Assembly (NCBI GenBank): GCA_020073465.1 | Contig: JAIQFC010000023.1 | Location: 1 to 64,000, forward strand | Origin: Terriglobia bacterium | GTDB lineage: Bacteria > Acidobacteriota > Terriglobia > Terriglobales > Acidobacteriaceae | Reading direction: 5' to 3' | Length of the DNA stretch: 64,000 nucleotides | Shown here: in pieces, positions 3,661-63,722 of the stretch | Numbering within the stretch: the stretch's first letter is position 1 | Layout: each line of letters begins with the position of its first letter | The notes under the pieces: model-generated | What the model was told of the DNA's origin: nothing | Database searches by the model: none | The model's input: the letters and a program-made list of their open reading frames with translations, nothing else | Translations under genes and position numbers: made by a program

Positions 3661-3697
3661 GGTTCCGTGGTAGGAATCCAAATTGAGGTTGAGGGAA

Positions 3698-3859
3698 ATG
3701 TACACGGGCACACTGATTCAGGAATTGATGGCGACGGTCGAGCGGGCTGAGCGGGACGTCAGTCGGCGGCAGGTTTCCGAGGTGATGGAGTTAGAGCGGC
3801 TCTACGAGCTGCGGATTCCTTCGATGCAGGGCGACGAAGTTTTCGCGGGAGCGGCATAA
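3698..3859 (+). CDS. 53-aa conserved-position small protein between rsmH and ftsL
   Basis: A charged helical 53-residue protein, MYTGTLIQELMATVERAE... , ending VFAGAA. It has no cysteines, membrane segment or signal peptide; the heptad-like pattern suggests a short coiled coil (about residues 6-37). The ATG is preceded by GAGGGAA at good spacing. The TAA stop is followed directly by the ftsL ATG (TAAATG), so the two are almost certainly co-translated. I do not recognise a family. Its position in the division cluster suggests a small division-associated or regulatory protein, which is inference only. Confidence 0.6.
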   Translation: MYTGTLIQELMATVERAERDVSRRQVSEVMELERLYELRIPSMQGDEVFAGAA

Positions 3860-4327
3860 ATGGCGGCAGCAGCGGCGGCAATTCGGGATGCGGGACCGGT
3901 GGCGGGGCGGCGGACTTTGTGGACCGGGACGCCGGAGATTTACTTCGCCAAAGCGATCGATAACTCGCGGCTGGTAAAGGTGGAAGATCCGCGGCGCAAT
4001 CGCGAGATGAAGCAGTTCGTGACCGCGCTGGCCTGCCTGTTCCTGTTCGTCTTTCTGTACGCTTGGCAACATTTCAAGGCGATCGAGTACGGGTATCAGA
4101 TCGAGTCGGCGAAGCAGGAACTCGGTGCGCTGACGGAGATGAGCAGAGCTTTGAAGCTGGAGGACGCCTCGCTGCGCGATCCGGAGCGAATTGATGTGAT
4201 GGCGCGGCGAATGGGTCTGGTGCCACCGGAGCCGGGACAGGTGATCCGCATGGATGGTGCGGCGGCGGAGGCGAGCAGTCCGGTCATGGCGAGCGCGAGT
4301 CCGATTACGGTGATGGCAGGGCAGTAG
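3860..4327 (+). CDS. ftsL: FtsL-like cell division protein
   Basis: A 155-residue bitopic membrane protein with the FtsL layout: about 50 cytoplasmic residues, one membrane helix at 52-70, then a periplasmic coiled coil (about 73-103) and the motif DPERIDVMARRMGL (107-120), which is typical of FtsL/DivIC-type proteins. FtsL links FtsB/FtsQ and activates FtsWI at the septum. The alanine-rich tail after residue 133 is low in complexity. It follows the 53-aa gene without a gap and lies upstream of ftsI, the usual order. Confidence 0.8.
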   Translation: MAAAAAAIRDAGPVAGRRTLWTGTPEIYFAKAIDNSRLVKVEDPRRNREMKQFVTALACLFLFVFLYAWQHFKAIEYGYQIESAKQELGALTEMSRALKLEDASLRDPERIDVMARRMGLVPPEPGQVIRMDGAAAEASSPVMASASPITVMAGQ

Positions 4328-4602
4328 AAGATTGTGTAGGGCCGGATCTTCGATCCGGCCGTGCCGAGCGAAGCTCGGCTGAGTTTCGGCGGCGGCCTGT
4401 CTGTATGTGGGCCGCCATGTTTGTCTGAGGTGAGGTTGAAGTCGTGGCGGAAATTCCTTTCGAGGCTGCCGGCAGCATCCAGGTGGTAGGGGTCCTTCGA
4501 CTGCGCATTCCGATTCGCTTTGCTCATCGGAATGCTCCGCTCAGGATGACAGGGTTTTGATGAGCCAACGACCAACGACTGGCGACCAACGACGGTTTAC
4601 CC
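4328..4602. repeat. Repeat-filled gap between ftsL and ftsI
   Basis: There are four structures. A hairpin GGCCGGATCTTCGATCCGGCC lies at about 4341-4361, and CCGAGC-GAA-GCTCGG follows. A family A element, TCCTTCGACTGCGCATTC...GCTCAGGATGACAG, runs at 4492-4554. A tandem word CCAACGACC / ACCAACGAC lies at 4563-4591. No gene is seen. Confidence 0.75.
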
Positions 4603-6834: not shown

Positions 6835-6850
6835 ATCCAAGAGAAATCTC

Positions 6851-6937
6851 AACCACAGAGGACACGAAGTTACACGAAGGAGGTCCAGATACAAGATCCT
6901 TTAGTTCCTCTGTGAAATTCTGTGACCTCTGTGGTGT
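6851..6937. repeat. Family C inverted repeat (ACCACAGAGGACACGAAG type)
   Basis: AACCACAGAGGACACGAAG on the left is matched by TGTGACCTCTGTGGTGT on the right, with about 24 bases between the arms. Variants occur at 8214-8242, 24495-24571, 36535-36560 and 44494-44588. Here it lies between ftsI and gcvT and could act as a transcript end, but has no T-run. Confidence 0.75.
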
Positions 6938-6948
6938 GACCCTCCTGT

Positions 6949-6978
6949 TTGACCCGCCGAAAAAGCGCGTGATACGGT
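6949..6978 (+). promoter_or_regulatory. Possible gcv operon promoter
   Basis: TTGACC at 6949-6954 is followed by TGATAC (15-base spacer) or TACGGT (18-base spacer). This is the best promoter-like sequence before gcvT, but the -10 match is weak. No glycine riboswitch-like fold was recognised. Confidence 0.3.
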
Positions 6979-7030
6979 TATCAGTCACACCATCCCAGCA
7001 GGCCAGCCGCTGCGCTGATTGAGGTTCTGC

Positions 7031-8191
7031 TTGTCCGCTGTTGAGGCGACCACAACTCCCGCCACTCCCGCCATCCGCAAAACTGCGTTGAACGCCGTCC
7101 ATCGCCAGATGGGGGCGAAGATGGTGGAGTTCAATGGCTGGGACATGCCGGTGGAGTATCCCGCGGCGATCGGCTGCGGAATCATCAACGAGCACATGGC
7201 GGTGCGCACGGGTGTGGGCATTTTCGATGTCAGTCACATGGGCGACATCCGCCTGGCGGGGCCGCAGGCGCTGGCTGCGGTGCAGCACATCTCCATGAAC
7301 GACGCTTCGCGGCTGGCGGTGGGGCAGGCGCAGTATTCGGCGCTGCTCTATCCCGAGGGGACGTTTGTGGACGATGTGATTGTCCACCGGCTGGGTGAGG
7401 ACGAGTACCTGCTGGTCATCAATGCGGGCACGCGGGAGAAAGACTTTAGCTGGGTACGGGAGAATACGCGACAGTTTGACTGCGCGGTGGAGAATCTGTC
7501 GGACGACTTCACGCAGATTGCGATCCAGGGGCCGAAGGGCGTGGATCTGCTGCAGAAGCTGACGGACGCGGAATTGAGCGCGGTGAAGTTCTACTGGGTG
7601 ACGCGCGGGACAGTGTGCGGGATTCCTGGTGTGTTGATGGGGCGAACGGGGTACACGGCGGAAGATGGGTTCGAAATTTATGTTCCAGCAGACGAGGCGA
7701 CCAGCGCGCGAGTGTGGCATCAGATTCTGGCGGGGGGAAAGGAATTCGGCGTTGTCCCCTGTGGCCTTGGTTCCCGCAACACGTTGCGTCTGGAAGGCAA
7801 GCTTCCGCTCTACGGGCATGAGATTTCCGATACGATTAACGTTTGGGAAGCCGGGCTCGATCGCTTCTGCAAGATGGAGAAGGAGGAGTTTGTTGGGCGG
7901 GCCGCGCTGGAGAAGGCTCGGGCCTCCGGTGTGAAGCGGACGCTGGTGGGTCTCGAGATGACCGAGCGTGGCATCGCGCGCGACGGATATAAGGTGCTGG
8001 ACGGCGGTGAGCGTGAGATTGGGTATGTGACCAGTGGGTCTCCGGCACCGTTTTTGAAGAAGAATATCGCGCTCGCCTATGTGCCGACGGAGTTTTCGGC
8101 AGTAGGGACAGCGATCAAGGTCGAGATTCGTGGGCAGGGCGTAGGAGCGGTGGTGGTCCCGACGCCTTTTTATAAGCGGCCGAAGAAATGA
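7031..8191 (+). CDS. gcvT: Glycine cleavage system T protein (aminomethyltransferase)
   Basis: T protein transfers the methylene carbon from the aminomethyl-lipoyl H protein to tetrahydrofolate, releasing ammonia. The 386-residue protein has the family opening KTALNAVHRQMGAKMVEFNGWDMP, the folate-site segment GVGIFDVSHMGDI and the GRTGYTAEDGFEIY motif, and near-standard length. I chose the TTG at 7031, which has TTGAGGT six bases upstream; a TTG at 7019 would add four residues but lacks that signal. It heads the set gcvT-gcvH-gcvPA-gcvPB, all on the plus strand. Confidence 0.93.
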   Translation: MSAVEATTTPATPAIRKTALNAVHRQMGAKMVEFNGWDMPVEYPAAIGCGIINEHMAVRTGVGIFDVSHMGDIRLAGPQALAAVQHISMNDASRLAVGQAQYSALLYPEGTFVDDVIVHRLGEDEYLLVINAGTREKDFSWVRENTRQFDCAVENLSDDFTQIAIQGPKGVDLLQKLTDAELSAVKFYWVTRGTVCGIPGVLMGRTGYTAEDGFEIYVPADEATSARVWHQILAGGKEFGVVPCGLGSRNTLRLEGKLPLYGHEISDTINVWEAGLDRFCKMEKEEFVGRAALEKARASGVKRTLVGLEMTERGIARDGYKVLDGGEREIGYVTSGSPAPFLKKNIALAYVPTEFSAVGTAIKVEIRGQGVGAVVVPTPFYKRPKK

Positions 8192-8213
8192 AGACCCGGC
8201 AGGGAAAATCTTC

Positions 8214-8280
8214 AACCACCAAGGACACGAAGGTACACGAAGTAGAGCTAGAAGCTAGCAGCTAGGAGCTAGAAGCTTTT
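8214..8280. repeat. Family C half-element plus AGCTAG tandem words before gcvH
   Basis: AACCACCAAGGACACGAAGG (8214-8233) runs into serial AGCTAGAAGCTAGCAGCTAG words that continue up to the gcvH ATG. The only candidate ribosome binding site of gcvH, AGGAG, is part of these words. Confidence 0.7.
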
Positions 8281-8670
8281 ATGGCGTATCCAACAGATCG
8301 CAAATATACGAAAGAGCATGAGTGGATTCAGACGAGCGGAACGTCCGCGACGGTCGGCATCACGGACTATGCGCAGGAGTCCCTGGGCGACATTGTCTTC
8401 GTCGAAGTGCCGAAGGTGGGCGTGGAACTCACGGCGGGCAAGACGTTTGGCACCGTCGAATCCGTGAAGGCGGTGTCGGACTTGTACGCTCCCGCTTCCG
8501 GAACGGTCACCGAAGTGAATGGGGATCTGGCATCGTCGCCGGAGAAAGTGAACAAGGACCCGCACGGCTCGTGGATGGTGAAGATCACACTGAAGAATCC
8601 GAAGGATCTGGATGCGCTGCTCTCCGCCGCCGACTATGAAAAGTTCGTGGCGGAAGAGAGCGGGCACTGA
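8281..8670 (+). CDS. gcvH: Glycine cleavage system H protein (lipoyl carrier)
   Basis: H protein carries the aminomethyl group on a lipoyl lysine between P and T proteins. The 129-residue sequence has the family hallmarks: KYTKEHEWI near the start, GITDYAQESLGDIVFVEVP, and the lipoylation site FGTVESVKAVSDLYAP with K63 as the modified lysine. ATG 8281 gives the normal N-terminus. The upstream AGGAG lies inside AGCTAG repeat words, so repeat DNA appears to have supplied the ribosome binding site. A repeat hairpin separates it from gcvPA. Confidence 0.95.
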   Translation: MAYPTDRKYTKEHEWIQTSGTSATVGITDYAQESLGDIVFVEVPKVGVELTAGKTFGTVESVKAVSDLYAPASGTVTEVNGDLASSPEKVNKDPHGSWMVKITLKNPKDLDALLSAADYEKFVAEESGH

Positions 8671-8745
8671 GGCCGGACCTCAGACTTCAGACCTTAGACC
8701 TCGGCCATGCATTGCTGAGGTCTGACGCCCGAGGTCCGACGCCGG
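8671..8745. repeat. Family B palindromic repeat after gcvH
   Basis: GGACCTCAGACTTCAGACC on the left is answered by GCTGAGGTCTGACGCC and GAGGTCCGACGCC on the right, forming an imperfect hairpin around CATGCATTG. The same words occur at 285-418 and 3391-3486. Confidence 0.75.
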
Positions 8746-8817
8746 TTTTGGTGCACTTGAGCGTTGGCGAGGCGGCTGCAATCAAACAGAATCTGTCCTA
8801 CATCTAATTAACTTCTT

Positions 8818-10194
8818 ATGCGCTATTTACCGAAATCTCCTGCCGACCGCGAAGCCATGCTGAAGGCGATTGGCCTGCGCTCGGTGGACGACCTGTTTGC
8901 GCCGATTCCGGCAGAATACCGGCTGGACCGCGATTTGAAGATTCCGCGACAGATGGCAGAGTCGGAAATTGTCGACTTCTTTAAACAGCGCTCGCGCGAG
9001 AATGGCGACGGCTATACCAGCTTTCTGGGCGCTGGAGCGTACTTTCATTACCGGCCCGTCATTATCGATTCGCTGATTTCGCGCGGCGAGTTTCTCACTG
9101 CCTACACCCCTTACCAGGCGGAGATTTCGCAGGGGACGCTGCAGTCCATCTTTGAATTTCAGACGATGATCTGCGAACTGACCGGCATGGAGGTGGCGAA
9201 CGCTTCCATGTACGACGGTTCGACCGCGGCGGCTGAGGCGGTGATGATGGCGGTGCGGCTGACGGGACGACGGTCGGTGGTGGTGGCGCGCAGCCTGCAT
9301 CCGGAGTATCGCGAGGTGCTGGCGACCTACGCGACGCATCAGGGGATGCCGCTGGCGGTCGCGGGCTTTGGTGCTGACGGGCGGCTGAATCTCAAAGAGC
9401 TTGAGAAGTCGATTACCGCGGAGACGGCGGCGGTACTGATCCAGTCGCCGAACTTCTTTGGGACGATTGAGGACGTGGCCGCCGTTGCAGAGATTGCCCA
9501 CAAGCACGGGGCAATGCTGGTAGTTTCGATTGCCGAGGCGGTGTCGCTCGGAATCGTGGAGCCGCCGCGGGAAGCCGACATCATTGCAATGGAAGCGCAG
9601 TCGTTCGGCGTACCGATGGGATTCGGCGGGCCGTACTGCGGAGTGATCGCCACGCGGGAGAAATTCGTGCGGCAGATGCCGGGGCGACTGGTCGGGCAGA
9701 CGACCGACAAGCACGGCAATCGTGGATTCGTCCTGACGCTGGCTACCCGCGAGCAGCACATCCGGCGGGAGAAGGCGACATCGAACATCTGCACGAACCA
9801 GGCTTTGGTGGCGCTCATGGTCAACATCTTTATGACCGTGTACGGAAAGATTGGGCTGAAAGAACTTGCGAAGCAGAACCTGGCGAAAACCGCGTATGCA
9901 GCAGGGCAGTTTGCCAAGCACGGGAAAGTTCTGTTTGGCGGTGCGCCACGGTTCAACGAATTCGTAGTCGAGACCAGTCAAGATCCTTACGCGATCAACA
10001 GCCGCCTGCTGGGACACAAGATGGTGGGTGGATTGCCGCTGAAGAAGTTTTATCCCGAACTGGGGAATGCGGCGCTGTGGTGCTGCACCGAACTGACCAC
10101 GCGATCCGCGATCGACACAGCTGTGGGACTGGTGGCTGAAAGCGAGCGCTCGGTGCGACCGGCGAAAGAGGAAGTCGAGGAGGTGGCGCGATGA
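8818..10194 (+). CDS. gcvPA: Glycine dehydrogenase (decarboxylating) subunit 1
   Basis: The N-terminal half of the split, two-subunit P protein, which decarboxylates glycine together with subunit 2. The 458-residue length is usual for GcvPA. The sequence contains [40 protein letters not shown] and the conserved end segment beginning [10 protein letters not shown]. This half lacks the PLP lysine, which lies in subunit 2, as expected. The stop overlaps the gcvPB start by four bases (ATGA), so the two subunits are translationally coupled. Split P proteins are common in Acidobacteriota and Firmicutes. Confidence 0.95.
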
Positions 10195-11681
10195 AACGCA
10201 TGACCCGCAAGGCCACGCGCCACGTCAATCAGAACGAAGGGCTGATCTTCGAGAAGTCATCGGCGGGAAAGGCGGCGTGGAAGTTGCCGCCGCTCGATGT
10301 GCCGGAAGTGGATACGGCCGCGCTGCTGGGCGTGGCGGAGAGAAAAGACCTGGGAAGCATGCCCGAGGTGAGCGAGATCGAGATCATCCGGCATTTCACT
10401 CGGCTTTCGACCTGGAACTATGCCATTGATCTGGGTATGTATCCGCTGGGATCGTGCACTATGAAGTACAACCCGCGCGTGAATGAGCACGTTGCGCGAG
10501 TGGAGGGCATCGCGAACGGGCATCCGTACCAGCCGGAGAAGATCTCACAGGGCGCGCTGCACATCCTGAAAACGCTGAGTGAATGCCTGCTGGAAATCAC
10601 CGGCATGGACGCGATTACGCTGCAGCCCGCGGCCGGCGCGCACGGCGAGATGACCGGCCTGCTGATGGTGCGGGCGTATCACCACTCGAAGGGCAACGCG
10701 CGGAAGAAGATTCTGATTCCCGACTCGGCGCACGGGACCAATCCGGCGACGGCTGCGATGGTGAACTATGCGGTCGAGAATCTGAAATCGGACTCGCGCG
10801 GCATGGTCGATATTGCGGCGTTGGAAGCGCAGATGAGCGAGGATGTGGCCGCGCTCATGCTGACGAATCCCAACACGCTGGGAGTTTTCGAACAGGACAT
10901 CCACAAGATTGCCGACATCCTGCATGCGAAGGGCGGCCTCCTCTATATGGACGGGGCCAACATGAACGCGTTGGTGGGCAAGGCGCGTCCGGGCGATTTT
11001 GGTGTCGATGTGATGCACCTGAACCTGCACAAGACGTTTTCGACACCGCATGGCGGTGGCGGGCCGGGATCAGGGCCCGTCGCAATCAAGAAAGCCCTGG
11101 AACCATTTCTGCCGCGGCCCGTGGTGGTGACCAAGCCGGACGGCACGCTGGGCTTCGACTACGACCGCCCGCAGTCGGTGGGGCGGGTGCGCGCGTTCTA
11201 CGGAAATTTCGGCATGTTCGTTCGCGCCCTCGCCTACATTCAGGCAAACGGACCTGACGGTTTGCGGCGGACGACCGAAGATGCGGTGCTCAACGCGAAC
11301 TACATTCGCAAGGGACTCGAGGGCACGTACGATCTGCCGTACGCGACGCCGACGATGCACGAAGTTGTCTTCAGCGACAAGGTGCAGGCGAAAAAGGGCG
11401 TGCGCACGATGGACATTGCCAAACGACTGATCGACTACGGATTCCATCCGTATACGACGGCGTTTCCTCTGATTGTGCCGGGCGCGATGATGATTGAGCC
11501 GACGGAGAGCGAGTCCAAGGAAGAAATGGATTTGTTCATCGAAGCGATGAAGTCGATTGCGGACGAAGTGGAAGAAGATCCGCAGACGGTGCTCGATGCG
11601 CCACATTCGACGCGGGTTTCGCGGTTGGATGAGACGGCGGCCGCGAGGAAGCCGGTCTTACGGTGGAAACCGACCGCGTGA
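10191..11681 (+). CDS. gcvPB: Glycine dehydrogenase (decarboxylating) subunit 2
   Basis: The catalytic PLP-binding half of the P protein, 496 residues. The PLP lysine is K281 in [20 protein letters not shown], preceded by [10 protein letters not shown]. Other family segments are [14 protein letters not shown] and [12 protein letters not shown]. It overlaps gcvPA by four bases. No lipoamide dehydrogenase gene is nearby, so the L protein must be supplied from elsewhere. The ATG at 10191 is used; an ATG nine bases downstream is the only close alternative. Confidence 0.95.
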
Positions 11682-39801: not shown

Positions 39802-40128
39802 ATGGCAAGATCACTGAAGAAGCCCAACCGCGGCGTCACGCCTGCCCCGTCTCGCAGCCTCAAAACCTCCGGAGATTCGTGGCAAGTTCAGACCGCGAAG
39901 GCCCGTTTCAGCGAAGTGTTCCGGCGGGCGCGAACGGAGGGGCCGCAACGCATCACGCGGCAGGGTAAGGAAGGCGTGGTGATGGTTGCGGAGGAACAAT
40001 ACGAACGCCTGGTGGGCAAGTCTCATCAGCCCAAGAATCTGGTGGAATTCTTCCGGCAATCGCCGCTGGTGGGGGTCGAGCTCGACCTGGAGCGAGATCG
40101 CGATGCGGGACGCGACGTTGAGCTATGA
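39802..40128 (+). CDS. Phd/YefM-type antitoxin
   Basis: A 108-residue antitoxin. The core WQVQTAKARFSEVFRRARTEGPQ followed by ITRQGKEGVVMVAEEQYERL is the Phd/YefM DNA-binding fold. The C-terminus (FFRQSPLVGVELDLERDRDA) is the toxin-wrapping part. The first 27 residues are a basic extension. ATG 39802 follows GGGAG. The stop overlaps the toxin start by four bases (ATGA). Confidence 0.9.
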   Translation: MARSLKKPNRGVTPAPSRSLKTSGDSWQVQTAKARFSEVFRRARTEGPQRITRQGKEGVVMVAEEQYERLVGKSHQPKNLVEFFRQSPLVGVELDLERDRDAGRDVEL

Positions 40129-40550
40129 GTGGATTCCTGCTGGACACGAATTGCATCTCTGAAGTTGTCCGCAGCAAGCCGGAACGGCGCGTGCTGGAGT
40201 GGATGGCGGCAGCGGATGAGAGTTTGCTCTACCTGAGCGTCCTGACGCTGGGGGAGATTCGCAAAGGAGTGGCGGGCCTGCCGCAGAGCAAACGGCGGAC
40301 CCGGTTAGAATCCTGGCTGGAATTGGAGCTGGGAGCCCGCTTTTCCGGGAGGATTCTCCCCGTTGATGCGGCGGTCGCTGACCGTTGGGGGTTGCTCTCC
40401 GCCGAGGCGAAGCGCAACGGAAGGTCCCTGTCGGCGATCGACGGTTTATTGGCCGCGACTGCGCTTCACCACAATCTCACGATCGTTTCGCGGAATGTCA
40501 GCGACTTTGCGAACACGCAGGCACCCGTTTTGAGTCCCTGGGAAGCGTAA
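40125..40550 (+). CDS. vapC: PIN-domain toxin (VapC/FitB type)
   Basis: A 141-residue PIN-domain ribonuclease. The acidic residues lie in FLLDTNCISE (D7), in LGEIRKG (E45 region), and in the SAIDGLLAATAL segment, with a further acidic residue in NVSDF near the C-terminus. The family cleaves RNA, often tRNA or rRNA, when released from its antitoxin. Translational coupling to a Phd-type antitoxin matches the FitAB-like arrangement. Confidence 0.92.
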   Translation: MSGFLLDTNCISEVVRSKPERRVLEWMAAADESLLYLSVLTLGEIRKGVAGLPQSKRRTRLESWLELELGARFSGRILPVDAAVADRWGLLSAEAKRNGRSLSAIDGLLAATALHHNLTIVSRNVSDFANTQAPVLSPWEA

Positions 40551-40596: not shown

Positions 40597-41346
40597 TTAC
40601 GGCAGAAATGCTTTTCCCTGCAACTCCTGAGCGGCTTGGGCCACATTCTCCGGCTTGCCGAGATCGCGCCAGTAGTATTCATCGGCGCGGAAGGCGAGGA
40701 TCTTCTCTCCCTGGCCGGCGACTCGCAGATACGAATTGATGATGGAGAAAACGCCTGGCTCCGACATCATCGGCAGGAAGCGTGGGGAGATGATGTGAAT
40801 ACCGGAGAAGGCTAGTGTCTGTGTGCTCTTTGGTGAGCGGACGAGTTCGGGTTGCTTATCGTGTCCGGAGCGGCGGCCGCAGAGTTCGTTGTTCTCGTCG
40901 AAGAGGAGGTAGCGCGAAGTCTCGCGGTCTTGCACCGCCAGCGTGGCCAGAGCTCTGCGGGCTGTGTGGGACTGCAGCATGCGTGGCAGATCGATCGTAC
41001 TGATCACATCGACATTGTGCACGAGAAACGGCTTGTCGGAGGAGTTGGAGCCTTCGAGAAAGAACCAGGCTGCCTTCTTGAGCCCACCGCCGGTATCGAG
41101 CAAGACATCTTCGCGCGACACCTCAATCCGCATGCCGAAGTTGTCATTCGCCTTCAGGTAATCGACGACCATGTCGGCAAAGTGATGCACGTTCACGATC
41201 ACTTCGCGAATCCCCAAGGTGCGCAGGCGGGAGAGGGTGATCTCCAGCAGCGTGCGGCCGGCGACTTCCACCAGCGCTTTGGGGCGATTGTCGGTAAGCG
41301 GACGCAGGCGCGTTCCGAGGCCGGCGGCCAAAATCATCGCCTTCAC
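40597..41346 (-). CDS. murU: MurU-like sugar-1-phosphate nucleotidyltransferase
   Basis: A 249-residue nucleotidyltransferase with the signature MKAMILAAGLGTRLRPLTDN and RPKALVEVAG, plus HNVDVISTIDL for metal binding. Its neighbour is an AmgK-like kinase, and the two overlap by four bases, so the likely role is N-acetylmuramate-1-phosphate uridylyltransferase in the peptidoglycan-recycling shortcut. A mannose-1-phosphate guanylyltransferase role is the main alternative; the gene pair argues for MurU. Confidence 0.82.
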   Translation of the reverse strand: MKAMILAAGLGTRLRPLTDNRPKALVEVAGRTLLEITLSRLRTLGIREVIVNVHHFADMVVDYLKANDNFGMRIEVSREDVLLDTGGGLKKAAWFFLEGSNSSDKPFLVHNVDVISTIDLPRMLQSHTARRALATLAVQDRETSRYLLFDENNELCGRRSGHDKQPELVRSPKSTQTLAFSGIHIISPRFLPMMSEPGVFSIINSYLRVAGQGEKILAFRADEYYWRDLGKPENVAQAAQELQGKAFLP

Positions 41347-42800
41347 CGGGCTGCCTTCTCCGACTCCAGCGTCTCCGACGCCATTCTGTCCAATTCGCGA
41401 TGGTGTACCACCACCTCGACGTTGGTTCGTCCGCGCAAACGCTTCGCCACCTGCTCGGCGAGATAAACGGAGCGATGCTGGCCTCCGGTGCAGCCGAACG
41501 ACACCATCAAGTTCTTGAAACCGCGCTTCTGATAGTTGTTCACGCTGGCATCCACCAAAGACATCACGCTGGCGAGAAACTGGTGCACGCTCTCCTGCTG
41601 GTTGAGATAGTCGATGACCGGAGCATCTCTTCCCGTCAGGGGCTTGAACCGATCCTCGCGTCCGGGATTCGGCAGGCTGCGGCCGTCGAAAATGAATCCG
41701 CCGCCATTGCCGGTTTCATCTTTTGGCAATCCGCGGTGGAAGGAAAAACTGAAGATCCGCACGATCAGGTTGTCGGCGTCGGATGCCAGGCCCTGTAGCT
41801 TCTCCGACGCCAGCATGCTGTTGAAGGCGTCCATCAGCGTGGGCAACGCGATGGGCAGGGTCACGTTGTGCAGCAGCCAGCGGACGTTCTTCAGGGCGTA
41901 GGGCACGCTCTGCAGGAAGTGGACCTTGCGCTCATAAAATCCGCGAAAGCCATACGCGCCCAGCGCCTGCATGATGCGGATGTAGACGTAGGCGTAGTAG
42001 TGCCGCATGAAGCCTTCGCGGCCAAGGTCGGTGAACGCGGCAAGTTTGTCGAGATAGTGATCAAGGAGTTGCTGCCGAAGTTCCGGCGGCAGATCGGCCT
42101 TGGCATCGTAGAGAAGCGAAGCGACATCGTATTGCAGCGCGCCTTTGCGGCCGCCCTGGTAATCCAGGAAGAACGGATGGCCGTTGTGCAGCATCACATT
42201 GCGCGACTGGAAGTCACGATACAGGAAGTATTCGCGGTCCGCGCTCAGCAGGAATTTCGTCAGGCGGCTGAAATCGTCCTCCAGCGCCTGTTCGTTGAAT
42301 GGGATACCGGCGAGCCTCAGAAAGTAATATTTGAAATAGTTCAGATCCCAGGCGATGGACTGGCGATCGAAACTGCCCCGCGGGTAACAGACCTTGTAGT
42401 TAAGGTCGCGGGCAGCTTCGATCTGAAAGCGTGGCAGGGTGGCGACGACTTCACGGTAAGCGTCAATTGCTTGTGGGGAAATCGTCTCGCCCGCTCGATT
42501 CTTCGAGAGGAACTCAAACAGCGTGGTGTCGCCCAGGTCCTCCTCGAGGTAGGCGCCCTGGTTCAAATCTTCCGCATAAATTTCCGGTACGGGCAGGCCG
42601 TGACGGCGAAAATGCCGCGAGAATTCGAGGAATGCGGCGTTCTCTTCCCGAACGTTGTACAGGATTCCAATCGCACTGAATTTGTCGTTGGCGAGCCGGA
42701 TGATATTGCGACCGGAGCCGCTGAACTGGCCTTGCAGCGGCTGCACGCGCTCGGCAGGCGAGTGGAAATGCTGCTCAAAGAGTTTCTGGAGAACGTCCAT
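41343..42800 (-). CDS. AmgK-like sugar kinase fused to RapZ C-terminal domain
   Basis: A 485-residue two-domain protein. Residues 1-340 are an aminoglycoside-phosphotransferase-fold kinase like AmgK (anomeric MurNAc/GlcNAc kinase), with the catalytic YRDFQSRN (194-201, D196) and DYQGG (213-217). Residues about 344-471 match the C-terminal domain of RapZ: SFSFHRGLPKDETGNGGGFI, FDGRSLPNPG, FKPLTGRDAPV and GCTGGQHRSVYLAEQVAKRL. In enterobacteria that domain senses glucosamine-6-phosphate and binds RNA. The RapZ N-terminal P-loop domain is absent. The stop overlaps the murU start. The ATG at 42800 lacks a clear ribosome binding site. Confidence 0.88.
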   Translation of the reverse strand: MDVLQKLFEQHFHSPAERVQPLQGQFSGSGRNIIRLANDKFSAIGILYNVREENAAFLEFSRHFRRHGLPVPEIYAEDLNQGAYLEEDLGDTTLFEFLSKNRAGETISPQAIDAYREVVATLPRFQIEAARDLNYKVCYPRGSFDRQSIAWDLNYFKYYFLRLAGIPFNEQALEDDFSRLTKFLLSADREYFLYRDFQSRNVMLHNGHPFFLDYQGGRKGALQYDVASLLYDAKADLPPELRQQLLDHYLDKLAAFTDLGREGFMRHYYAYVYIRIMQALGAYGFRGFYERKVHFLQSVPYALKNVRWLLHNVTLPIALPTLMDAFNSMLASEKLQGLASDADNLIVRIFSFSFHRGLPKDETGNGGGFIFDGRSLPNPGREDRFKPLTGRDAPVIDYLNQQESVHQFLASVMSLVDASVNNYQKRGFKNLMVSFGCTGGQHRSVYLAEQVAKRLRGRTNVEVVVHHRELDRMASETLESEKAAR

Positions 42801-56176: not shown

Positions 56177-58459
56177 CTACCGCTGTCGAAGGCGATGAGC
56201 TGCGACCAGTACTTGGCCCAGGCTCAGACCGCCATCCCCGGCAGGGACTTCCGAGTGCGTGAATACCTCAAAGCCCTCGCCTTCGAGTCGCGAGCGCAGG
56301 TTCGTGAGCAGGTACGCGTTGTGGAACGTTCCGCCACTCAGGCACACACGATTCAGAGAGGAACGCTGACGAAGAAGGTCGGCGATGTGAACAAAGATGT
56401 TCACCAGCCCGTTGTGAAATTGCCGGCTGATGGCCGAAACGGATATTCCTCGTTCGATGTCGTCAACCAGAGCCTCAAACAGCGGCTTGGTGCCGATCCT
56501 CCAGCAGTCTCCGTCGGTGAGCAGTTGCATCGGATAAGAGCCGTTGCCATCCGACCGTTCCATTGCCATTTCAAGCTCGATCGCCGCCTGGGCTTCGTAG
56601 TTCACCTCTTGCCGGATTCCGGCCAGCGCGGCAACCGCGTCGAACAGCCGCCCGCAGCTTGAGGTCAGCGGAGAATTCACCCCACGATCAGTTATCCGCA
56701 ACAGCAGATCAACCTTCTTGCGATCGAGTTGCTGCACGAACGGCAGCTTCATTTCCCGGAAGGCTTCTCCGAAATGATGGGCCAGGTAGCTCACCGCCAT
56801 GCGCCACGGCTCACGGATGGCGGCGCTTCCGCCCGGCATGGGTACATACTCGAAGTGCGCGGCGCGCTCAAACTTGTCGTAATCAGCAATCAGGACCTCG
56901 CCACCCCAGACCTGTCCGTCGGTGCCATAACCAGTGCCGTCCAGCGCAAAGCCAATAACCGGACCGGCGATTCCATTCTCGCCCATGCAACTGGCGATGT
57001 GCGCGTGGTGATGCTGCACTCCCATCAATTCCACACCCGTCTGCTGGAGCGCCCACTTCGTCGAAAAATAGTCAGGATGCAGATCGTAGGCGACGATTGC
57101 CGGACTGATCTCTAGAATTCTCTGGAGGTGTGCCACGGTCTGCTCGAAGAACTTGTAGCTCTCCAGATTCTCCAGGTCGCCGATGTGCTGGCTGAGAAAG
57201 ACGCGATCGCCGTCACTCACACTGATGGTGTTCTTCAGTTCGCCGCCCACTCCGAGGATTTGCGGGATCTCTTCCTTCAGAAACACCGGAACGGGAACGT
57301 AGCCGCGCGATCTCCGCATCTGCCGCGGTCTTCCGGACACGACCCGGACAACTGAGTCATCGCAGCGCAGCAGGATGTCGCGGTTGTGGACAAGAAAGTG
57401 GTCCGCTAGTCCACTCAGCCGCGCGAGAGCTTCCTGATTATCAATCGCAATCGGCTCTTCGCTGAGATTGCCGCTGGTCATGACCAGCGCGAGAAAGTTA
57501 CCTTCGGCAAACAAAAGATAATGCAGGGGCGTGTAAGGCAGAAATACGCCGAGGTCACGGTTCGACGGCGCAACCTCTCCGGCGATGGGACTTGAAGCTT
57601 TGCGCTGCAACAGCACGACGGGCCGCTGGATCGATCGCAGGGCTTGCCGGGCAGCGTCATCGACCTCGCATAGCCTCTGGACCGTCTCCAGATTAGGCGC
57701 CATGATCGCAAACGGTTTCTCGACTCGCCGTTTACGCTCACGCAGCAGCGCGACGGCCGCCGCGTTCGTCGCGTCGACCGCAAGGTGAAACCCGCCCAGC
57801 CCTTTTACCGCCACCACATGACCGGCTCTTAGCACGGTCGCAGTGTCGGCGATCGGGTCTCGACTCGCGACACGCGTCCCATTCTTGTCCCACAGTTCCA
57901 ACTGAGGCCCACAGTCCCAGCAGGCATTGGGTTGAGCATGAAAACGGCGATTCAACGGATCCTCATACTCCGCCTGACACGCCGGGCACATGGGAAACAC
58001 TGCCATCGAAGTGTGCGGCCGGTCGTAGGGGATGTCGCGCACGATTGTGAATCGCGGCCCACAATTCGTGCAGTTGATAAACGGATAGCGATGGCGCCGG
58101 TCCGTCGGGTCCAGCATCTCGCGCAGGCAGTCGTCACAAACCGCAATGTCGGGGGAGATGAGAGTGTGAACTGCCTCGCCCCGCTGGCTCGCTAGGATGC
58201 GGAATTCGCGGTCGCCATTGCAGGGCAGGTCGCGCACGGTCACGTCGGTGATTCGTGCCAGCGGTGGCGCCTGGCGGGGAAGGCAGCTGACGAAATCATC
58301 TACCGCTTGAGCTGGGCCCTGGATTTCAATGGTGACGCCGGAAGGTGTGTTGCTAACGTTGCCGCTGAGTTGGCGTTCAGTGGCGAGGCGATAGATATAG
58401 GGCCGGAATCCCACGCCCTGCACGATCCCGCAAACATCGATTCGCCGTCGGACTTGCAT
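56177..58459 (-). CDS. hypF: Hydrogenase maturation carbamoyltransferase HypF
   Basis: A 760-residue protein that makes the cyanide ligands of NiFe hydrogenase from carbamoyl phosphate, passing the group to HypE. Domains in order: acylphosphatase (about 1-90, GIVQGVGFRPYIYRLA), zinc-finger region (about 105-190, CDDC, CTNCGPR, CPAC, CWDC), YrdC-like (about 200-380) and Kae1-like (about 400-760) with the metal motif HHHAHIASCM. Full length, no defects. It is the last gene of the hyp operon and follows hypB after seven bases. Confidence 0.96.
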   Translation of the reverse strand: MQVRRRIDVCGIVQGVGFRPYIYRLATERQLSGNVSNTPSGVTIEIQGPAQAVDDFVSCLPRQAPPLARITDVTVRDLPCNGDREFRILASQRGEAVHTLISPDIAVCDDCLREMLDPTDRRHRYPFINCTNCGPRFTIVRDIPYDRPHTSMAVFPMCPACQAEYEDPLNRRFHAQPNACWDCGPQLELWDKNGTRVASRDPIADTATVLRAGHVVAVKGLGGFHLAVDATNAAAVALLRERKRRVEKPFAIMAPNLETVQRLCEVDDAARQALRSIQRPVVLLQRKASSPIAGEVAPSNRDLGVFLPYTPLHYLLFAEGNFLALVMTSGNLSEEPIAIDNQEALARLSGLADHFLVHNRDILLRCDDSVVRVVSGRPRQMRRSRGYVPVPVFLKEEIPQILGVGGELKNTISVSDGDRVFLSQHIGDLENLESYKFFEQTVAHLQRILEISPAIVAYDLHPDYFSTKWALQQTGVELMGVQHHHAHIASCMGENGIAGPVIGFALDGTGYGTDGQVWGGEVLIADYDKFERAAHFEYVPMPGGSAAIREPWRMAVSYLAHHFGEAFREMKLPFVQQLDRKKVDLLLRITDRGVNSPLTSSCGRLFDAVAALAGIRQEVNYEAQAAIELEMAMERSDGNGSYPMQLLTDGDCWRIGTKPLFEALVDDIERGISVSAISRQFHNGLVNIFVHIADLLRQRSSLNRVCLSGGTFHNAYLLTNLRSRLEGEGFEVFTHSEVPAGDGGLSLGQVLVAAHRLRQR

Positions 58460-58466
58460 GTGCCAT

Positions 58467-59141
58467 TCAAGCCACCGGCTGGGCCTTCACCGCGTGCGCT
58501 CTGCGCTGCTCCAGCCACGTCATCCACTCGCCCATGCCGCTTCCGGTCGTAGCGGAGACTCTCACGCTCTGCATGCCAGGATGGACGCGGCGCGCGTTCT
58601 CCTCTGCCACAGCGATGTCGAAGGGAACGTAGGGCAGCAGGTCGACCTTCGTCAGCACGAGCAGTTCGGACTTGAAGAAGATTGACGGATACTTCAGCGG
58701 CTTGTCCTCACCTTCGGTCACGCTGAGCAGCACGATTTTGGCGTTTTCCCCTAGATCGTAGCTCGAGGGACAGACCAGGTTTCCGACGTTCTCGATGAAC
58801 AGAAGATCGATCTCTTCCAGTTTCCAGTCGGCGAGATGCCGATCGATCATGCGCGCGTCGAGATGGCAAGTGCCCCCGGTCGTAATCTGCTTGGTGGGAA
58901 ACCCGAAGCGCCGCAGCCGTGCGGCGTCATTCTCCGTTTGAATATCGCCGGTCAGCACCGCGACGCGGTCATTTCCCGGCAGGCTCTCCAGAGTTCTTTC
59001 CAGCAGACTGGTCTTGCCGGAACCGGGAGAGCTGATCAGGTTGAGGCAGAGCGTGCCGTGCTCTCGAAACCGTTCCCGAAGCTCGCCGGCGATCCGGTCA
59101 TTCTCGCTCAGAACCTTCTTCTCAAGCGGGACTCGGTTCAT
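58467..59141 (-). CDS. hypB: Hydrogenase nickel-insertion GTPase HypB
   Basis: A 224-residue SIMIBI GTPase delivering nickel to the hydrogenase large subunit together with HypA. The P-loop SPGSGKTS is at 38-45, the metal site TCHLDAR has C92 and H93, and TKVDLL is the guanine-specificity motif. The N-terminal CxxCGC motif and His-rich region of some relatives are absent, so nickel storage is unlikely. The ATG at 59141 (MNRVPLEKKV) overlaps the end of hypA by 20 bases. Confidence 0.95.
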   Translation of the reverse strand: MNRVPLEKKVLSENDRIAGELRERFREHGTLCLNLISSPGSGKTSLLERTLESLPGNDRVAVLTGDIQTENDAARLRRFGFPTKQITTGGTCHLDARMIDRHLADWKLEEIDLLFIENVGNLVCPSSYDLGENAKIVLLSVTEGEDKPLKYPSIFFKSELLVLTKVDLLPYVPFDIAVAEENARRVHPGMQSVRVSATTGSGMGEWMTWLEQRRAHAVKAQPVA

Positions 59142-59484
59142 GTTCCTCCACCTCCAGATATGCCATCTCCAGCTCGTCTCCGCTGATGCATTCACTGTTC
59201 AGCTTTCCGCATTGCGGACAGGTAAAGTCATAATCTTTCACGTTGAAGTCCGTGTGGCAGTCCCGGCAGCGATGCCGCCGCGGACGAATCTCGATCTCCA
59301 GTTCCAGCGACTCCAGATCGGTCTCCTTGGTCAGCGCCTCGAAACAAAAGCGCAGAGATTCGGGATCGACAGCAGCCAACTCGCCGATCCGCAGCCCGAC
59401 TTTGCGCGGACTCGACCCAGGATAGCGGGCCGCTTCCGTGCGGACGGCTTCGATCACCGAGTTGGCAATTCCCATCTCGTGCAT
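59122..59484 (-). CDS. hypA: Hydrogenase nickel chaperone HypA
   Basis: A 120-residue protein starting MHEMGIANSV; the N-terminal Met-His pair binds nickel. A zinc site is formed by C73/C76 (CRDC) and C89/C92 (CPQC). The C-terminus has an acidic tail (YLEVEEHEPSPA). The ATG at 59484 is the conserved family start. The stop of hypE lies 7 bases upstream and hypB overlaps downstream, so all three are in one transcript. Confidence 0.95.
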   Translation of the reverse strand: MHEMGIANSVIEAVRTEAARYPGSSPRKVGLRIGELAAVDPESLRFCFEALTKETDLESLELEIEIRPRRHRCRDCHTDFNVKDYDFTCPQCGKLNSECISGDELEMAYLEVEEHEPSPA

Positions 59485-59491
59485 GACTCTG

Positions 59492-60553
59492 TCAGCAAAT
59501 GCGCGGCAATTGATCTCCCGCCAGCATGTCCACAATTCGGGTCGTGCCCAGGGGTGTTCGCATCACGACGAGCCCTGGATTCTTCTCCGTCACTGTGCCG
59601 ATGATCTGCGCGTCTTTCCCGAGGGGATGCCGCCGCATGGCCGCCAGCACAGTTTCTGCCACGCTGGGTTCCACAATCGCGACCAGCTTGCCTTCATTCG
59701 CGACATACAGCGGGTCTAATCCCAGCAGCTCGCATGCCCCTTTTACCTCGTCGCGGATCGGGATCGCGCGCTCGATCAGTTCGATTCCCACTCGCGACTG
59801 CGCCGCAATCTCGTTCAATGTGCTGGAGAGCCCGCCGCGCGTGGGATCCCGCATGCAGCGGATATCACCAGTGACCTTAAGCATTTCGGCGACCAGAGTG
59901 TGCAATGCTGCACTGTCGCTCTGGATTGCGCTCTCGAATTCCAGACCTTCCCGCTGCGCGAGAATGGCAATTCCGTGGTCGCCGATCGACCCGCTTAACA
60001 AAACCTTGTCGCCGGGCCGGGCGCGGTCTGCCGACATCTCAAGTCCGTCGGGCACCAGGCCGATTCCGGTCGTGTTTATGAAGAGCCCGTCGCCGCTGCC
60101 TTTCTCGACGACCTTGGTGTCTCCCGTGACCACCTGCACGCCAGCAGAATCTGCCGCCTTGTGAAGCGACTCGACCACGCGCCGCAGCACGTCCATCGAT
60201 AGACCTTCTTCAAGGATGAAGGCCGCGCTGAGGAACAGTGGCTGGGCGCCGCCCATGGCGAGGTCGTTGACCGTACCGTGCACCGCCAAAGATCCGATGT
60301 CGCCACCGGGGAAGAACAACGGCTTCACTACGAAGGAGTCCGTGGTGATTGCAATCCGCGAGCCGTTCACTTGGACGATAGCCTGGTCGTCGAGTTTCGA
60401 CAGAGCAGGGTTCTTGAAGGCAGGCAGGAAGACATCCCGAACCAGCTCGGCGCTGAGCTTTCCTCCGCTGCCGTGGCCCAGAAGAATCGTGTCTTTCGCA
60501 GGCAGAGGTGTGGGGCAACTCATCTCAGCAATCGTTTTCAGCACCTCTGCCAT
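59492..60553 (-). CDS. hypE: Hydrogenase maturation protein HypE
   Basis: A 353-residue PurM-like protein that dehydrates the carbamoyl group received from HypF to a thiocyanate. It contains ILLGHGSGGKLSAELVRDVF and HGTVNDLAMGGAQPLFLSAA, and ends in the essential C-terminal cysteine (PRIC, C353). Length and ends are complete. It follows hypD after nine bases. Confidence 0.96.
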   Translation of the reverse strand: MAEVLKTIAEMSCPTPLPAKDTILLGHGSGGKLSAELVRDVFLPAFKNPALSKLDDQAIVQVNGSRIAITTDSFVVKPLFFPGGDIGSLAVHGTVNDLAMGGAQPLFLSAAFILEEGLSMDVLRRVVESLHKAADSAGVQVVTGDTKVVEKGSGDGLFINTTGIGLVPDGLEMSADRARPGDKVLLSGSIGDHGIAILAQREGLEFESAIQSDSAALHTLVAEMLKVTGDIRCMRDPTRGGLSSTLNEIAAQSRVGIELIERAIPIRDEVKGACELLGLDPLYVANEGKLVAIVEPSVAETVLAAMRRHPLGKDAQIIGTVTEKNPGLVVMRTPLGTTRIVDMLAGDQLPRIC

Positions 60554-60562
60554 CCCTGTTCC

Positions 60563-61660
60563 TCAGCTTGCTACGGTATGCCTCCGGTAATGGTAGTACG
60601 CGGCGCATGCACCCTCGGCGGAGACCATCGGCGCGCCGAGCGGATTCTCGGGCGTACAGCGCATGGCGAACGCCGGACAATCCGTCGGTTTCTTCAATCC
60701 TTGCAGAACCATCGCGCTGATGCATTCTGCAGGCTCGTCGGCGGTGACCAGCTGGAGGTCGAAGACTTTGTTGGCATCGTGGGCTCTGTACTCCTCACGC
60801 AGCCGCAACCCGCTATTCGGAATCGGACCAATGCCCCGCCACTTCTGATCGGCAACCTCAAATACTTCTTTCATGATCTGCTGCGCCGCAAGGTTGCCGG
60901 CATAGCTGACCGAGCGCACGTACTGGTTCTCGATGCGCGCCTCTCCTTGTTCCAGTTGCTTCACCAGCATCAGGACGGCTTCCAGCAGATCCGCCGGCTC
61001 AAAACCGCCAACCACGATGGGCACGGCGAAGTCGCGAACCAGCGCTTCGTACTCCTGAAATCCCATCACCGTGCAGACATGACCGGGCGCGATAAAAGCT
61101 TGTACGCGATTCTGCCGCGAGGTCATCAGCGCACGGATCGCGGGTGGAACCAGCACATGCGACACCAGCATCGAAAAGTTCTTCAGCCCTTCGCGCTTCG
61201 CCTGGAAGGCCGCCATGGCATTGGGCGGCGCCGTCGTCTCAAAGCCGATCGCCAGGAAAACAACTTTGCGGTCAGGGTTCGCACGGGCAACCTTCACGGC
61301 TTCCAACGGCGAATACGCGATTCGGACATCCCCACCCTGGGCTTTCGCTCGGAACAAGTCTGAATTCGACCCGGGAACCCGCAGCATGTCGCCATACGAG
61401 ACGAGTGTCACGTCCGGGCGCAGGGCCAGCGCAATGGCCTTGTCGATGGTTTCGAGCGGAGTGACGCACACCGGACAGCCCGGCCCGTGCACCAGTTCAA
61501 TCTCGGGGGGCAGAAGTTCGTCGAGGCCATAACGCATGATGGTGTGGGTCTGCCCGCCACAGATTTCCATCAACACCCAGGGGCGAGTCACGCAGCGGGT
61601 GATCTCTGCGACCAGGCCGTGTGCAATGCGCTCATCGCGGTACTCGTCGAGGTATTTCAT
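60563..61660 (-). CDS. hypD: Hydrogenase maturation iron-sulfur protein HypD
   Basis: A 365-residue protein that assembles the Fe(CN)2CO unit with HypC. The motifs are [38 protein letters not shown] and [12 protein letters not shown], with further cysteines near the C-terminus for the 4Fe-4S cluster. Its start overlaps the hypC stop by four bases (ATGA). Confidence 0.96.
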
Positions 61661-61932
61661 CGGCGGCCCTCATCCGCGACTTCAGCCTCCTGCGGCAGCT
61701 CTTCCTCCAGCACGCCCATTTCTTCCAGCAGTTGGTAGGTACGCTGTGCTTCTTCGGCATTCACCACGCTGATCGCGAAGCCTACGTGCACCAACACATA
61801 GTCACCGACCGCGGCTTCCGGGACGAAATCCAGGCTGACTTGCCGCGTGATGCCACCAAACTGCACCCGAGCGCTGCGGAGTCCGTTGCATTCCTCGGCG
61901 CTTACGATTTTTCCCGGGACGGCCAGACACAT
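61657..61932 (-). CDS. hypC: Hydrogenase assembly chaperone HypC
   Basis: A 91-residue chaperone starting [10 protein letters not shown]; the second residue, Cys, is essential for binding HypD and the large subunit. [19 protein letters not shown] is the conserved middle. The acidic tail ([16 protein letters not shown]) is longer than usual. The ATG at 61932 has GGAGGG at good spacing; the start lies 31 bases inside the 3' end of the upstream protease gene. Confidence 0.95.
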
Positions 61933-62414
61933 GGTGCCCTCCAGCGACAATGTAGAGCGCGTACCTCGCTGCTGATCTGCTGGGCCACTTCTTCTACGGC
62001 TTGCCTTACCTCAGGCGAAATCTCGGCCCCACGATCAAACCGCCTGCCCTCGATCCCGTACACTCGCAGGGACTTTGGAGATTTCCCCAGCACTCTTGCC
62101 AGCCGGACCGCCTCGCCCACGCCGAATCCATGAGTCGAGGCCGGAGCGCCGCTTTCAACGTGGGGCAGTTCACGTTCCCAGCAGTGAACCGTGCCCGCGG
62201 ACGCCCCCGTCACCACGGCGTCGATGATGATGACCTCATCCTCTGTACCCCAGGCATCCATGAGTTCGGCGGCTTCCCCAATGCAGATCTTTGTGGTTAT
62301 GCCCGAGGTTTCCCCACCCGACGATTCTACGCCCAGTTCGCGGAGCCGCTCCGCCACCAGCACCCCGGCGCCATCATCTCCGCGCCCACGGTTTCCGCAG
62401 CCAATGATCCGCAT
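61902..62414 (-). CDS. NiFe-hydrogenase maturation endopeptidase
   Basis: A 170-residue protease of the HycI/HybD/HoxW group that trims the C-terminus of the large subunit after nickel insertion. It has GCGNRGRGDDGAGVLVAERL with the nickel-sensing acidic D13/D14, D65 in VIIIDAVV and H95 in STHGFGVGEA. The large subunit directly upstream still carries a 14-residue extension for it to remove. The 3' end overlaps hypC by 31 bases. Confidence 0.88.
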   Translation of the reverse strand: MRIIGCGNRGRGDDGAGVLVAERLRELGVESSGGETSGITTKICIGEAAELMDAWGTEDEVIIIDAVVTGASAGTVHCWERELPHVESGAPASTHGFGVGEAVRLARVLGKSPKSLRVYGIEGRRFDRGAEISPEVRQAVEEVAQQISSEVRALHCRWRAPCVWPSREKS

Positions 62415-62417
62415 GCC

Positions 62418-63722
62418 TCAGCCGTTGCCCGGGTCCGATCGCTCGATCTCAAGCTTCAGAAAATGCGTCGCGCATGAGATGCACGGGTCATAGTTCCGTA
62501 TCGCCTGCTCGCACTTCCACGTCGCTTCTTCGAGCGGCCATGCCACCAACCGTGCGGCGTAGTCCCGCAGATCGTCCTCAATTCTCCTCTGATTCTGCGA
62601 AGTTGGGGGAACAATCTTGGCCGTGACGATGAGTCCCTGCTGATCCAGAGCGTAGCGGTGATACAGGATGCCGCGCGGCGCCTCCGTGATGGCATGTCCC
62701 ACCCCGGCACGGTTCGGCGCCTCGACTCGCGGAGCGGCGGGCGGCACGTACTCGCGGATAATCCGCAAGGCTTCCGCACAGGCGAACACCAGCTCAACCG
62801 CCCGAACCACAATGCTGCGGAAAGGGTTCTTCACCGGCACGTTGAGATTGGCCTTGGTGGCCGCTTCCTGCGCCACTTGCGGCAGCTTGTCAAAGTTCAG
62901 GTTGAAGCGCGCCAACGGTCCCACCAGGTATGAGCCCCTGCCCCGGATCACCGAGTGCAGTGCGTTGGAGTGCTTCACGTGTAATTCGAGAAAGTGATCC
63001 TCATACGCGGCGGCATCGATATCCAGGCCGCGGCTCGACACCAGGCGTCCTTCGTTGAACGGATACTCATCCGGATGGCGAAGCGCGACAAATTCGTAGT
63101 CCTGTTCAAAGATCGGAAACTCCAAGCCCGCCGTCCACTGCACCGCCTCCAGAGAAGCTTGCAGCGCCCACTCAAGATCCTCGACGAGCTCGCGCAACTG
63201 GTACTTCGTGGGCGTCTTGTAGAAACCGCCGACCGCCGCCGAAATGGGATGAATCTCCCGCCCGCCCAGCACCTGCACGATCCGATTGCCAATTTTCTTC
63301 AGCCGCAGTGCCTGCTCAACCACGCTGCGATGCTCGCCCGCCATGGCGATTACATCGGGATATCCCAGAAAATCTGGGGCGTGAAGCATGTAGACATGCA
63401 ATGCGTGACTCTCAATCCATTCTCCGCAGTAGAACAGGCGCCGCAACAGGCGCACAGCGGGATCGATACTGATCCCCAGAGCCCGCTCGATGGCGTGGAT
63501 CGCGCTCATCTGGTACGCAATCGGACAGATCCCGCAGATCCGCGAAGTGATATCGGGCGCTTCGGAGAAATGGCGGCCCCGCAGGAAGGCTTCGAAGAAT
63601 CGCGGAGGCTCGTAAATCCTCAGCTTCACGTCGGACACGCGCTCGCCTGCCATCTTGATGTACAGCGAGCCTTCGCCCTCCACCCGGGCCAGCGTGTCCA
63701 CGCGAATCGTGCGTCCCGTCAT
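62418..63722 (-). CDS. NiFe hydrogenase large (catalytic) subunit, group 3-like
   Basis: A 434-residue catalytic subunit. The nickel ligands are C63/C66 in RICGIC and C414/C417 in DPCISC, followed by H420, after which a 14-residue tail ([14 protein letters not shown]) awaits proteolytic removal. The short N-terminus ([14 protein letters not shown]) and overall length fit cytosolic group 3 enzymes, probably the NADP-linked group 3b, rather than membrane uptake types. The start overlaps the small-subunit stop by four bases. Confidence 0.93.

Follow-up and report, generated by a model that had tools for sequence, protein, structure and literature searches.

What does the C-terminal domain of RapZ do when it is carried by a sugar kinase? 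The question is raised by a gene in a 64,000-nucleotide stretch of DNA from a Terriglobia bacterium of the Acidobacteriota (assembly GCA_020073465.1, contig JAIQFC010000023.1, positions 1 to 64,000; the window, below), in which an intact open reading frame (ORF) at 41343-42800 on the minus strand, with an ATG start and no internal stop, encodes an AmgK-like kinase and a RapZ C-terminal domain (CTD) in one chain. The answer favoured here, held tentatively and at a little less than even confidence, is that the CTD handles N-acetylmuramic acid 6-phosphate (MurNAc-6-phosphate), most likely as a phosphatase that would feed the kinase and a MurU-like enzyme encoded next to it, making the fusion a bifunctional enzyme of MurNAc salvage. 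The parts of the gene are as follows.

41343 to 42800, minus strand: fusion gene, AmgK-like kinase and RapZ CTD, 485 aa
41781 to 42800, minus strand: AmgK-like kinase domain (residues 1-340) with the APH fold; 3csv is the solved structure nearest to it
42198 to 42221, minus strand: kinase catalytic loop YRDFQSRN, residues 194-201, with R195, D196, F197 and N201 invariant in 61 sequences
42150 to 42164, minus strand: kinase motif DYQGG, residues 213-217, with D213, Q215 and G216 invariant in 61 sequences
41346 to 41780, minus strand: RapZ_C-type domain and short tail, residues 341-485
41697 to 41711, minus strand: insertion G(N/H)GGG (residues 364-368), which 107 of 109 fused CTDs have and 0 of 32 canonical RapZ CTDs
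41658 to 41663, minus strand: G380-R381, at the positions of E. coli RapZ H190-W191, Gly in 109 of 109 and Arg or Lys in 109 of 109 fused CTDs
41469 to 41495, minus strand: phosphate loop GCTGGQHRS, residues 436-444, with the signature C-x5-R-S

A first-pass annotation, made from the letters of the window, had divided the protein into a kinase and a RapZ domain and had noted that the P-loop domain of RapZ is missing; profile searches bear out both points, with the kinase at residues 1-340 and the CTD at 346-470. The Pfam scan places APH (PF01636) at residues 51-251 (E 1.3e-14) and RapZ_C (PF22740) at 346-470 (E 4.2e-36; 124 bits against a curated cut-off of 27), and gives no match to the RapZ P-loop (Walker A/B) domain PF03668, the two PF03668 proteins of the genome being encoded elsewhere. 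Among NCBIfam models only RapZ and AmgK match the fusion at E up to 1, the HAD (haloacid dehalogenase)-type MupP model NF009696 not being among them. The RapZ model matches over its C-terminal half alone (profile positions 155-278, 118 of 244 bits), and the two AmgK models score 59.3 and 53.6 bits, missing their cut-offs of 500 and 550. The same genome encodes two further RapZ proteins complete with N- and C-terminal domains (G000:C28:68763-69596 and G000:C33:87945-88784); one complete RapZ lies on the contig of the fusion at about 88 kb, some 45 kb away from it.

The kinase has the APH fold of AmgK, a MurU-like neighbour, and the RDF-x-S-x-N, D-x-Q and YD motifs of a Sinorhizobium protein in which TsaE is joined to an AmgK-like kinase, but it falls far below the AmgK equivalog cut-offs and carries a RapZ-type CTD. 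The catalytic D196 and N201 and the metal Asp D213 are invariant in the 61 sequences and align with the Sinorhizobium kinase; D213 we take, by analogy, to be the metal-binding residue. The Sinorhizobium meliloti protein (L166:2362-4614), the record of which says TsaE and whose name AmgK rests on similarity and on its neighbour, likewise has its AmgK-like kinase, here as the C-terminal part, in a fusion followed by a nucleotidyltransferase gene, but the partner domain is TsaE, not RapZ_C. Such kinases seem to be fusion-prone.

The fusion is real and widespread. Of 120 genomes drawn from the family, 45 encode the kinase: 42 of them with the CTD in the same open frame, and three (G221, G235 and G247) with a match truncated at contig ends. 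Named genomes were scanned as well and yielded at least 508 stretches encoding a relative, with patterns that sit in the kinase part, so that not all are shown to be fusions; counts for named loci below refer to the best 80 of these. By record title the 80 come from Acidobacteria, Bacteroidetes, Elusimicrobia, Calditrichia, Ignavibacteria, Neomarinimicrobiota, Deferribacteres, Verrucomicrobia/Opitutia, Latescibacterota and other bacteria. The motif GCTGG-x-HRS is present at 79 of the 80, in the first ORF of 78 and in the next ORF of L127, while L090 runs off its contig. The search across Acidobacteriota and Bacteroidota that had been proposed at the outset thus recovered the fusion in both, and in further phyla. 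A frameshift or assembly join as the cause of the fusion, raised in the first-pass annotation together with possible loss of the GCTGGQHRS site in homologues, is rejected, since the architecture recurs in one open frame across the family and across phyla; nor is the site lost. One apparent natural split of kinase from CTD, in G221, was rejected and not counted because both halves stop at contig ends. Members from Bacteroides and Parabacteroides are labelled 'RNase adapter RapZ' in RefSeq. The AmgK of Tannerella forsythia has been produced in E. coli, together with MurU, to serve as a control for labelling (PMC13041923), and the fusion is seen in Parabacteroides, a relative of that species. Several RapZ_C matches elsewhere in the phylum lie within frames of 500-635 codons and are perhaps other RapZ fusions (e.g. 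G122:C75:7092-7448 and G092:C26:47312-47674).

The CTD has the fold of RapZ. Its AlphaFold model has a mean local confidence (pLDDT) of 95.8, against 92.8 for the whole protein, for which a predicted template modelling (pTM) score of 0.71 leaves the domain arrangement less sure. The CTD superimposes on RapZ (5o5s) with a VIA Z of 19.5 and 1.5 A over 123 residues, followed weakly, at Z about 6, by phosphofructokinase and P-loop kinases. A fold search at E up to 0.001 returned RapZ chains only, and a CTD profile run against the PDB matched RapZ chains alone.

Within this fold the phosphate site is preserved and its surroundings are changed. The comparison comprised 109 fused CTDs (110 were taken and L051, whose motif reads N, was dropped) and 32 canonical ones, from E. 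coli RapZ and 31 loci of the window's phylum. In E. coli numbering, S166, F167, D182, R184, N188, P189, G246-C247-T248-G249-G250, H252-R253-S254 and H276 are invariant in both sets; the C-x5-R-(S/T) loop is found in 109 of the 110 fused proteins, L051 being the exception, and its Cys in 109/109. Of the RapZ pocket residues H190, T248, G249, H252 and R253 plus C247, five of six are kept in the fused CTDs. The sixth, H190, is Gly in all 109, so that the ligand need not be glucosamine-6-phosphate (GlcN6P); H190 itself is His in only 22 of the 31 other canonical CTDs. W/F191 is Arg or Lys in 109/109, position 236 is Arg in 107/109, and position 238 is Phe or Tyr in 109/109, where the canonical proteins have E/D/N and K/R at 236 and 238, respectively. 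The G(N/H)GGG insertion is absent from L132 and L147, and G415 (L179) gave no G.GGG match. A tree divides the CTDs into two groups at 100/100 support, one of the 14 canonical CTDs and the other of the 41 that are fused or separated. Compared with RapZ and YvcJ (UPF0042), then, the fusion shares the PF22740 domain, the fold, the loop and the residues D182, R184, N188, P189 and H276, but differs in its missing P-loop N-terminal domain, its insertion, the replacements at 190 and 191, its aromatic residue at 238 and its separate tree group. A phosphate cradle that is kept beside a remodelled sugar side fits, as judged from these alignments, a ligand other than GlcN6P.

The likeness of this loop to phosphatases is already published and is not new here. 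The pocket of E. coli RapZ has been likened to the loop of protein tyrosine phosphatase (PTP)-type enzymes, and GlcN6P hydrolysis suggested (PMC7199280). In the study of the RapZ:GlmZ structure the C247A and C247S variants were inactive, a catalytic role of the thiol was suspected, and what was seen in the CTD with GlcN6P was probably a product of its transformation (PMC9841335). The homologue YvcJ 'exhibits NTPase and phosphatase activities' (PMC7525490); the main text of a paper on soil phosphatases (PMC6355987) leaves YvcJ unmentioned. Among open-licence PMC papers none was found that treats the meaning of the loop in the kinase-RapZ_C fusion, or RapZ together with AmgK; one that names RapZ along with Bacteroides concerns phage resistance, to judge by its title.

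The gene is closely coupled to a partner, as the first-pass annotation had held in describing it as co-translated with a MurU-like enzyme:

40597 to 41346, minus strand: MurU-like nucleotidyltransferase of 249 aa, whose GTG start and the stop of the fusion gene overlap by 4 nt (GTGA)

Besides this overlap, a MurU-like ORF follows the fusion at 29 of 29 further family loci and lies downstream on the same strand at 61 of the 80 named loci; among the 19 loci without one, L090 and L092 are truncated by the ends of their contigs, and the others are uncut. The best NCBIfam model of the downstream protein is MurU, at 129 bits, missing the equivalog cut-off of 250. Its best PDB match is 4y7t_A ('Nucleotidyl transferase'), which we take to be Pseudomonas MurU; the second and third are mannose-1-phosphate guanylyltransferases, and the fourth is 8hhd_A, named N-acetylmuramate alpha-1-phosphate uridylyltransferase.

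The CTD is also associated with genes of MurNAc-6-phosphate metabolism, a compound that an E. coli K-12 murQ mutant is reported to build up (PMC5371407). In a draw of 198 Bacteroidota genomes (thresholds: kinase E up to 1e-15, AnmK up to 1e-10, MurQ up to 1e-30), 67 have the kinase and 24 the CTD, all 24 of the latter being kinase-positive and 20 having kinase and CTD in cis. AnmK is present in 16 of these 24, MurQ in 11 and either in 18, whereas the 43 genomes with the kinase only have neither. The CTD occurs in 7/7 genomes with AnmK and no MurQ, as against 9/128 with both (Fisher 8e-8, kinship ignored), and the CTDs of the seven are only 42-58% identical to one another, apart from one pair at 88%. 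Kinase and MurQ are themselves almost complementary, MurQ being found in 130 of 131 genomes lacking the kinase, 0 of 43 with the kinase only and 11 of 24 with kinase and CTD. In a second set, of 30 fusion genomes (the window's own and 29 from the genomes of the 80 named loci), 25 have AnmK, the window's own among them, and 25 match MurQ strongly (E below 1e-60). The genomic pattern suits an enzyme that acts on MurNAc-6-phosphate no less than it suits a sensor of GlcN6P.

In some lineages the CTD stands alone. In four of the 24 CTD-positive Bacteroidota (G299, G318, G382 and G467) it is a separate ORF of 133-135 aa. In G299 (L175) and G382 (L174) the kinase, a 135-aa CTD and a MurU-like ORF lie in a row; G318 (L180) has the same order of kinase, CTD and MurU, with the CTD starting 3 nt past the kinase stop, and the Calditrichota locus L127 resembles it. 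In G467 the 133-aa CTD ORF is on a different contig from the kinase, both lying well within their contigs (L167 and L168). The linked separate CTDs are all in the frame of the kinase, with four stops between them in L175 and one each in L174, L180 and L127. From these reading frames, a sequencing error or single mutation can be set aside as the cause of the split in L175 and G467, is unlikely in L174, which is a near relative of L175, and is possible in L180 and L127. In trees the separated CTDs fall among the fused ones (with modest support and long branches), so that separation of the domains likely came after fusion, and a CTD that persists unbroken as a gene by itself probably has a function in its own right.

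Together these features suggest the following route, modelled on Pseudomonas, where AnmK yields MurNAc-6-phosphate, MupP strips the phosphate, and AmgK and MurU follow (PMC5371407). AnmK or another kinase would supply MurNAc-6-phosphate. The CTD loop, G-C437-T-G-G-Q-H-R443-S, would bind the phosphate and hydrolyse it to give free MurNAc, with C437 as putative nucleophile and R443 as part of the cradle. The AmgK-like domain of the same chain would then phosphorylate MurNAc at C1, and the co-translated MurU-like enzyme would convert the product to uridine diphosphate (UDP)-MurNAc. The CTD would therefore do the job of MupP, filling the step from AnmK to AmgK; the likeness lies in the proposed role only, MupP being a HAD-like phosphatase (PMC5371407) and the CTD a RapZ fold with a Cys loop. 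With PTP-type cysteine phosphatases the CTD shares a C-x5-R-(S/T) loop between a strand and a helix. Global homology of the CTD to PTP enzymes was also considered, and no PTP is among the matches listed. An enzyme turning MurNAc-6-phosphate into MurNAc would explain at once the loop, the altered sugar side, the gene order, the occurrence with AnmK where MurQ is lacking, and the free-standing CTDs.

Several observations weigh against a phosphatase. The loop is equally invariant in canonical RapZ, where E. coli uses it for regulation, and no PTP fold is among the matches listed in the CTD fold comparison. The conserved D361, D372 and D392 are candidate general acids only. Neither AnmK nor MurQ is found in 6 of the 24 CTD-positive Bacteroidota, and AnmK is lacking from 5 of the 30 fusion genomes. 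The Fisher values ignore kinship, the 198 genomes are of unstated completeness, and 42 of the 43 kinase-only genomes are nearly evenly spaced in the draw and probably form one clade. The genome of the window has MurQ and eight HAD_2 proteins, the best of which scores 91 of 359 bits against the MupP model, so that a phosphatase is not strictly missing there. None of the 30 fusion genomes has a match over the cut-off of the MupP model NF009696, but neither has any of 14 controls, of which Caulobacter is one; the model is therefore uninformative here, and absence of MupP was dropped as evidence. That cut-off looks too strict beyond close relatives, missing every control although a MupP homologue is listed for Caulobacter (PMC13046382).

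The alternative that survives best, and the nearest to the first-pass annotation, is an allosteric sensor: the CTD would bind GlcN6P or MurNAc-6-phosphate without turnover and switch the kinase, dividing the sugar between salvage and catabolism. This is possible, though on balance rather doubtful. The CTD of E. coli RapZ binds GlcN6P with a KD of 10 nM by surface plasmon resonance (PMC7073468), the phosphate cradle is invariant, the two domains are in cis in most CTD-positive Bacteroidota, and MurQ, present in 11 of those 24 genomes and in the window's own, would make MurNAc-6-phosphate a branch point. However, some genomes encode the CTD as a protein by itself, in one case away from the kinase gene, and an invariant Cys is more than phosphate binding alone should require. 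A sensor accounts for most of what a phosphatase accounts for, but not for how AmgK is fed in genomes with AnmK and no MurQ, which need some phosphatase, unless a HAD enzyme supplies it. What stands of the earlier proposal is one protein joining wall-sugar recycling to an amino-sugar-phosphate pocket, seen in its domains and loop; its RNA and glmS part is not supported.

It is improbable, next, that the kinase and nucleotidyltransferase make another nucleotide sugar (e.g. UDP-N-acetylglucosamine or a heptose derivative), with the CTD handling the 6-phosphate of that sugar. Both the AmgK and MurU scores are far below cut-off (59 of 500 and 129 of 250 bits), and mannose-1-phosphate guanylyltransferases stand second and third among the PDB matches of the downstream protein; yet the best of those matches is 4y7t, the kinase part matches AmgK models alone and the downstream protein MurU best, here and in Parabacteroides (NCBIfam), and MurQ is split 130/131 to 0/43 between kinase-less and kinase-only Bacteroidota. 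That the CTD is a mere dimerisation or stabilising module carried along is less probable still: the CTD of RapZ can dimerise alone (PMC7073468), and kinases without it lie beside MurU-like genes (L169-L173), but the invariant residues cluster in the loop of the pocket, and the CTD persists where it has an ORF to itself.

A role in RNA binding and glmS control, which the first-pass annotation had carried over from enterobacterial RapZ, finds little in the residues. Seven basic residues are named as lining the RNA path of E. coli RapZ (PMC9841335). At such positions the fused CTDs have R184 in 109/109 and K/R at 196 in 84, but a basic residue at 170 in only 54 and at 251 in only 9, and Phe or Tyr at 238 in all; this evidence is weak, because the 31 other canonical CTDs do not conserve the tail, positions 194 and 211 and, in part, 251 either, leaving only 238 and 170 to set the fused CTDs apart. 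The basic tail of E. coli is absent from the fused CTDs, but also from most canonical CTDs compared, and YvcJ is described as lacking the RNA-binding sequence (PMC7525490). With no Rfam family found in the window, an RNA-binding regulator like enterobacterial RapZ is very improbable, the shared domain family, R184 and position 196 notwithstanding.

The surroundings of the gene add little. Across L091-L147 no gene cluster other than the MurU-like one is a neighbour in more than five loci, and a promoter and terminator scan gave nothing above shuffled sequence. The MurU-like gene is adjoined by a Phd/YefM antitoxin and PIN-domain pair (39802-40550, plus strand). Further off in the window lie mraW and a gene for a penicillin-binding protein that bears PASTA, with two ORFs for the glycine cleavage P-protein after them (2395-11681, plus strand), and the hydrogenase maturation genes hypF, hypB-like, hypE-like and hypD with a nickel hydrogenase subunit (56177-63722, minus strand).

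Work on RapZ has treated it as a regulator that binds RNA; the CTDs described here, fused or free-standing, place the domain in metabolism, beside the kinds of enzymes that make UDP-MurNAc, and this setting gives a concrete substrate and simple assays. A broader proposal, which we offer as possible while holding it open to considerable doubt, is that RapZ_C constitutes a new class of cysteine-loop amino-sugar-phosphate phosphatases, fused or coupled to AmgK and supplying the missing MurNAc-6-phosphate phosphatase in some nine phyla (by record title), and that the enterobacterial small-RNA regulator RapZ recruited the domain as a GlcN6P sensor. If the phosphatase reading is true, database names such as 'RNase adapter RapZ' mislead for the fusion proteins, the salvage pathways of Bacteroidota, Acidobacteriota and others would gain their MurNAc-6-phosphate phosphatase, and RapZ would gain an origin.

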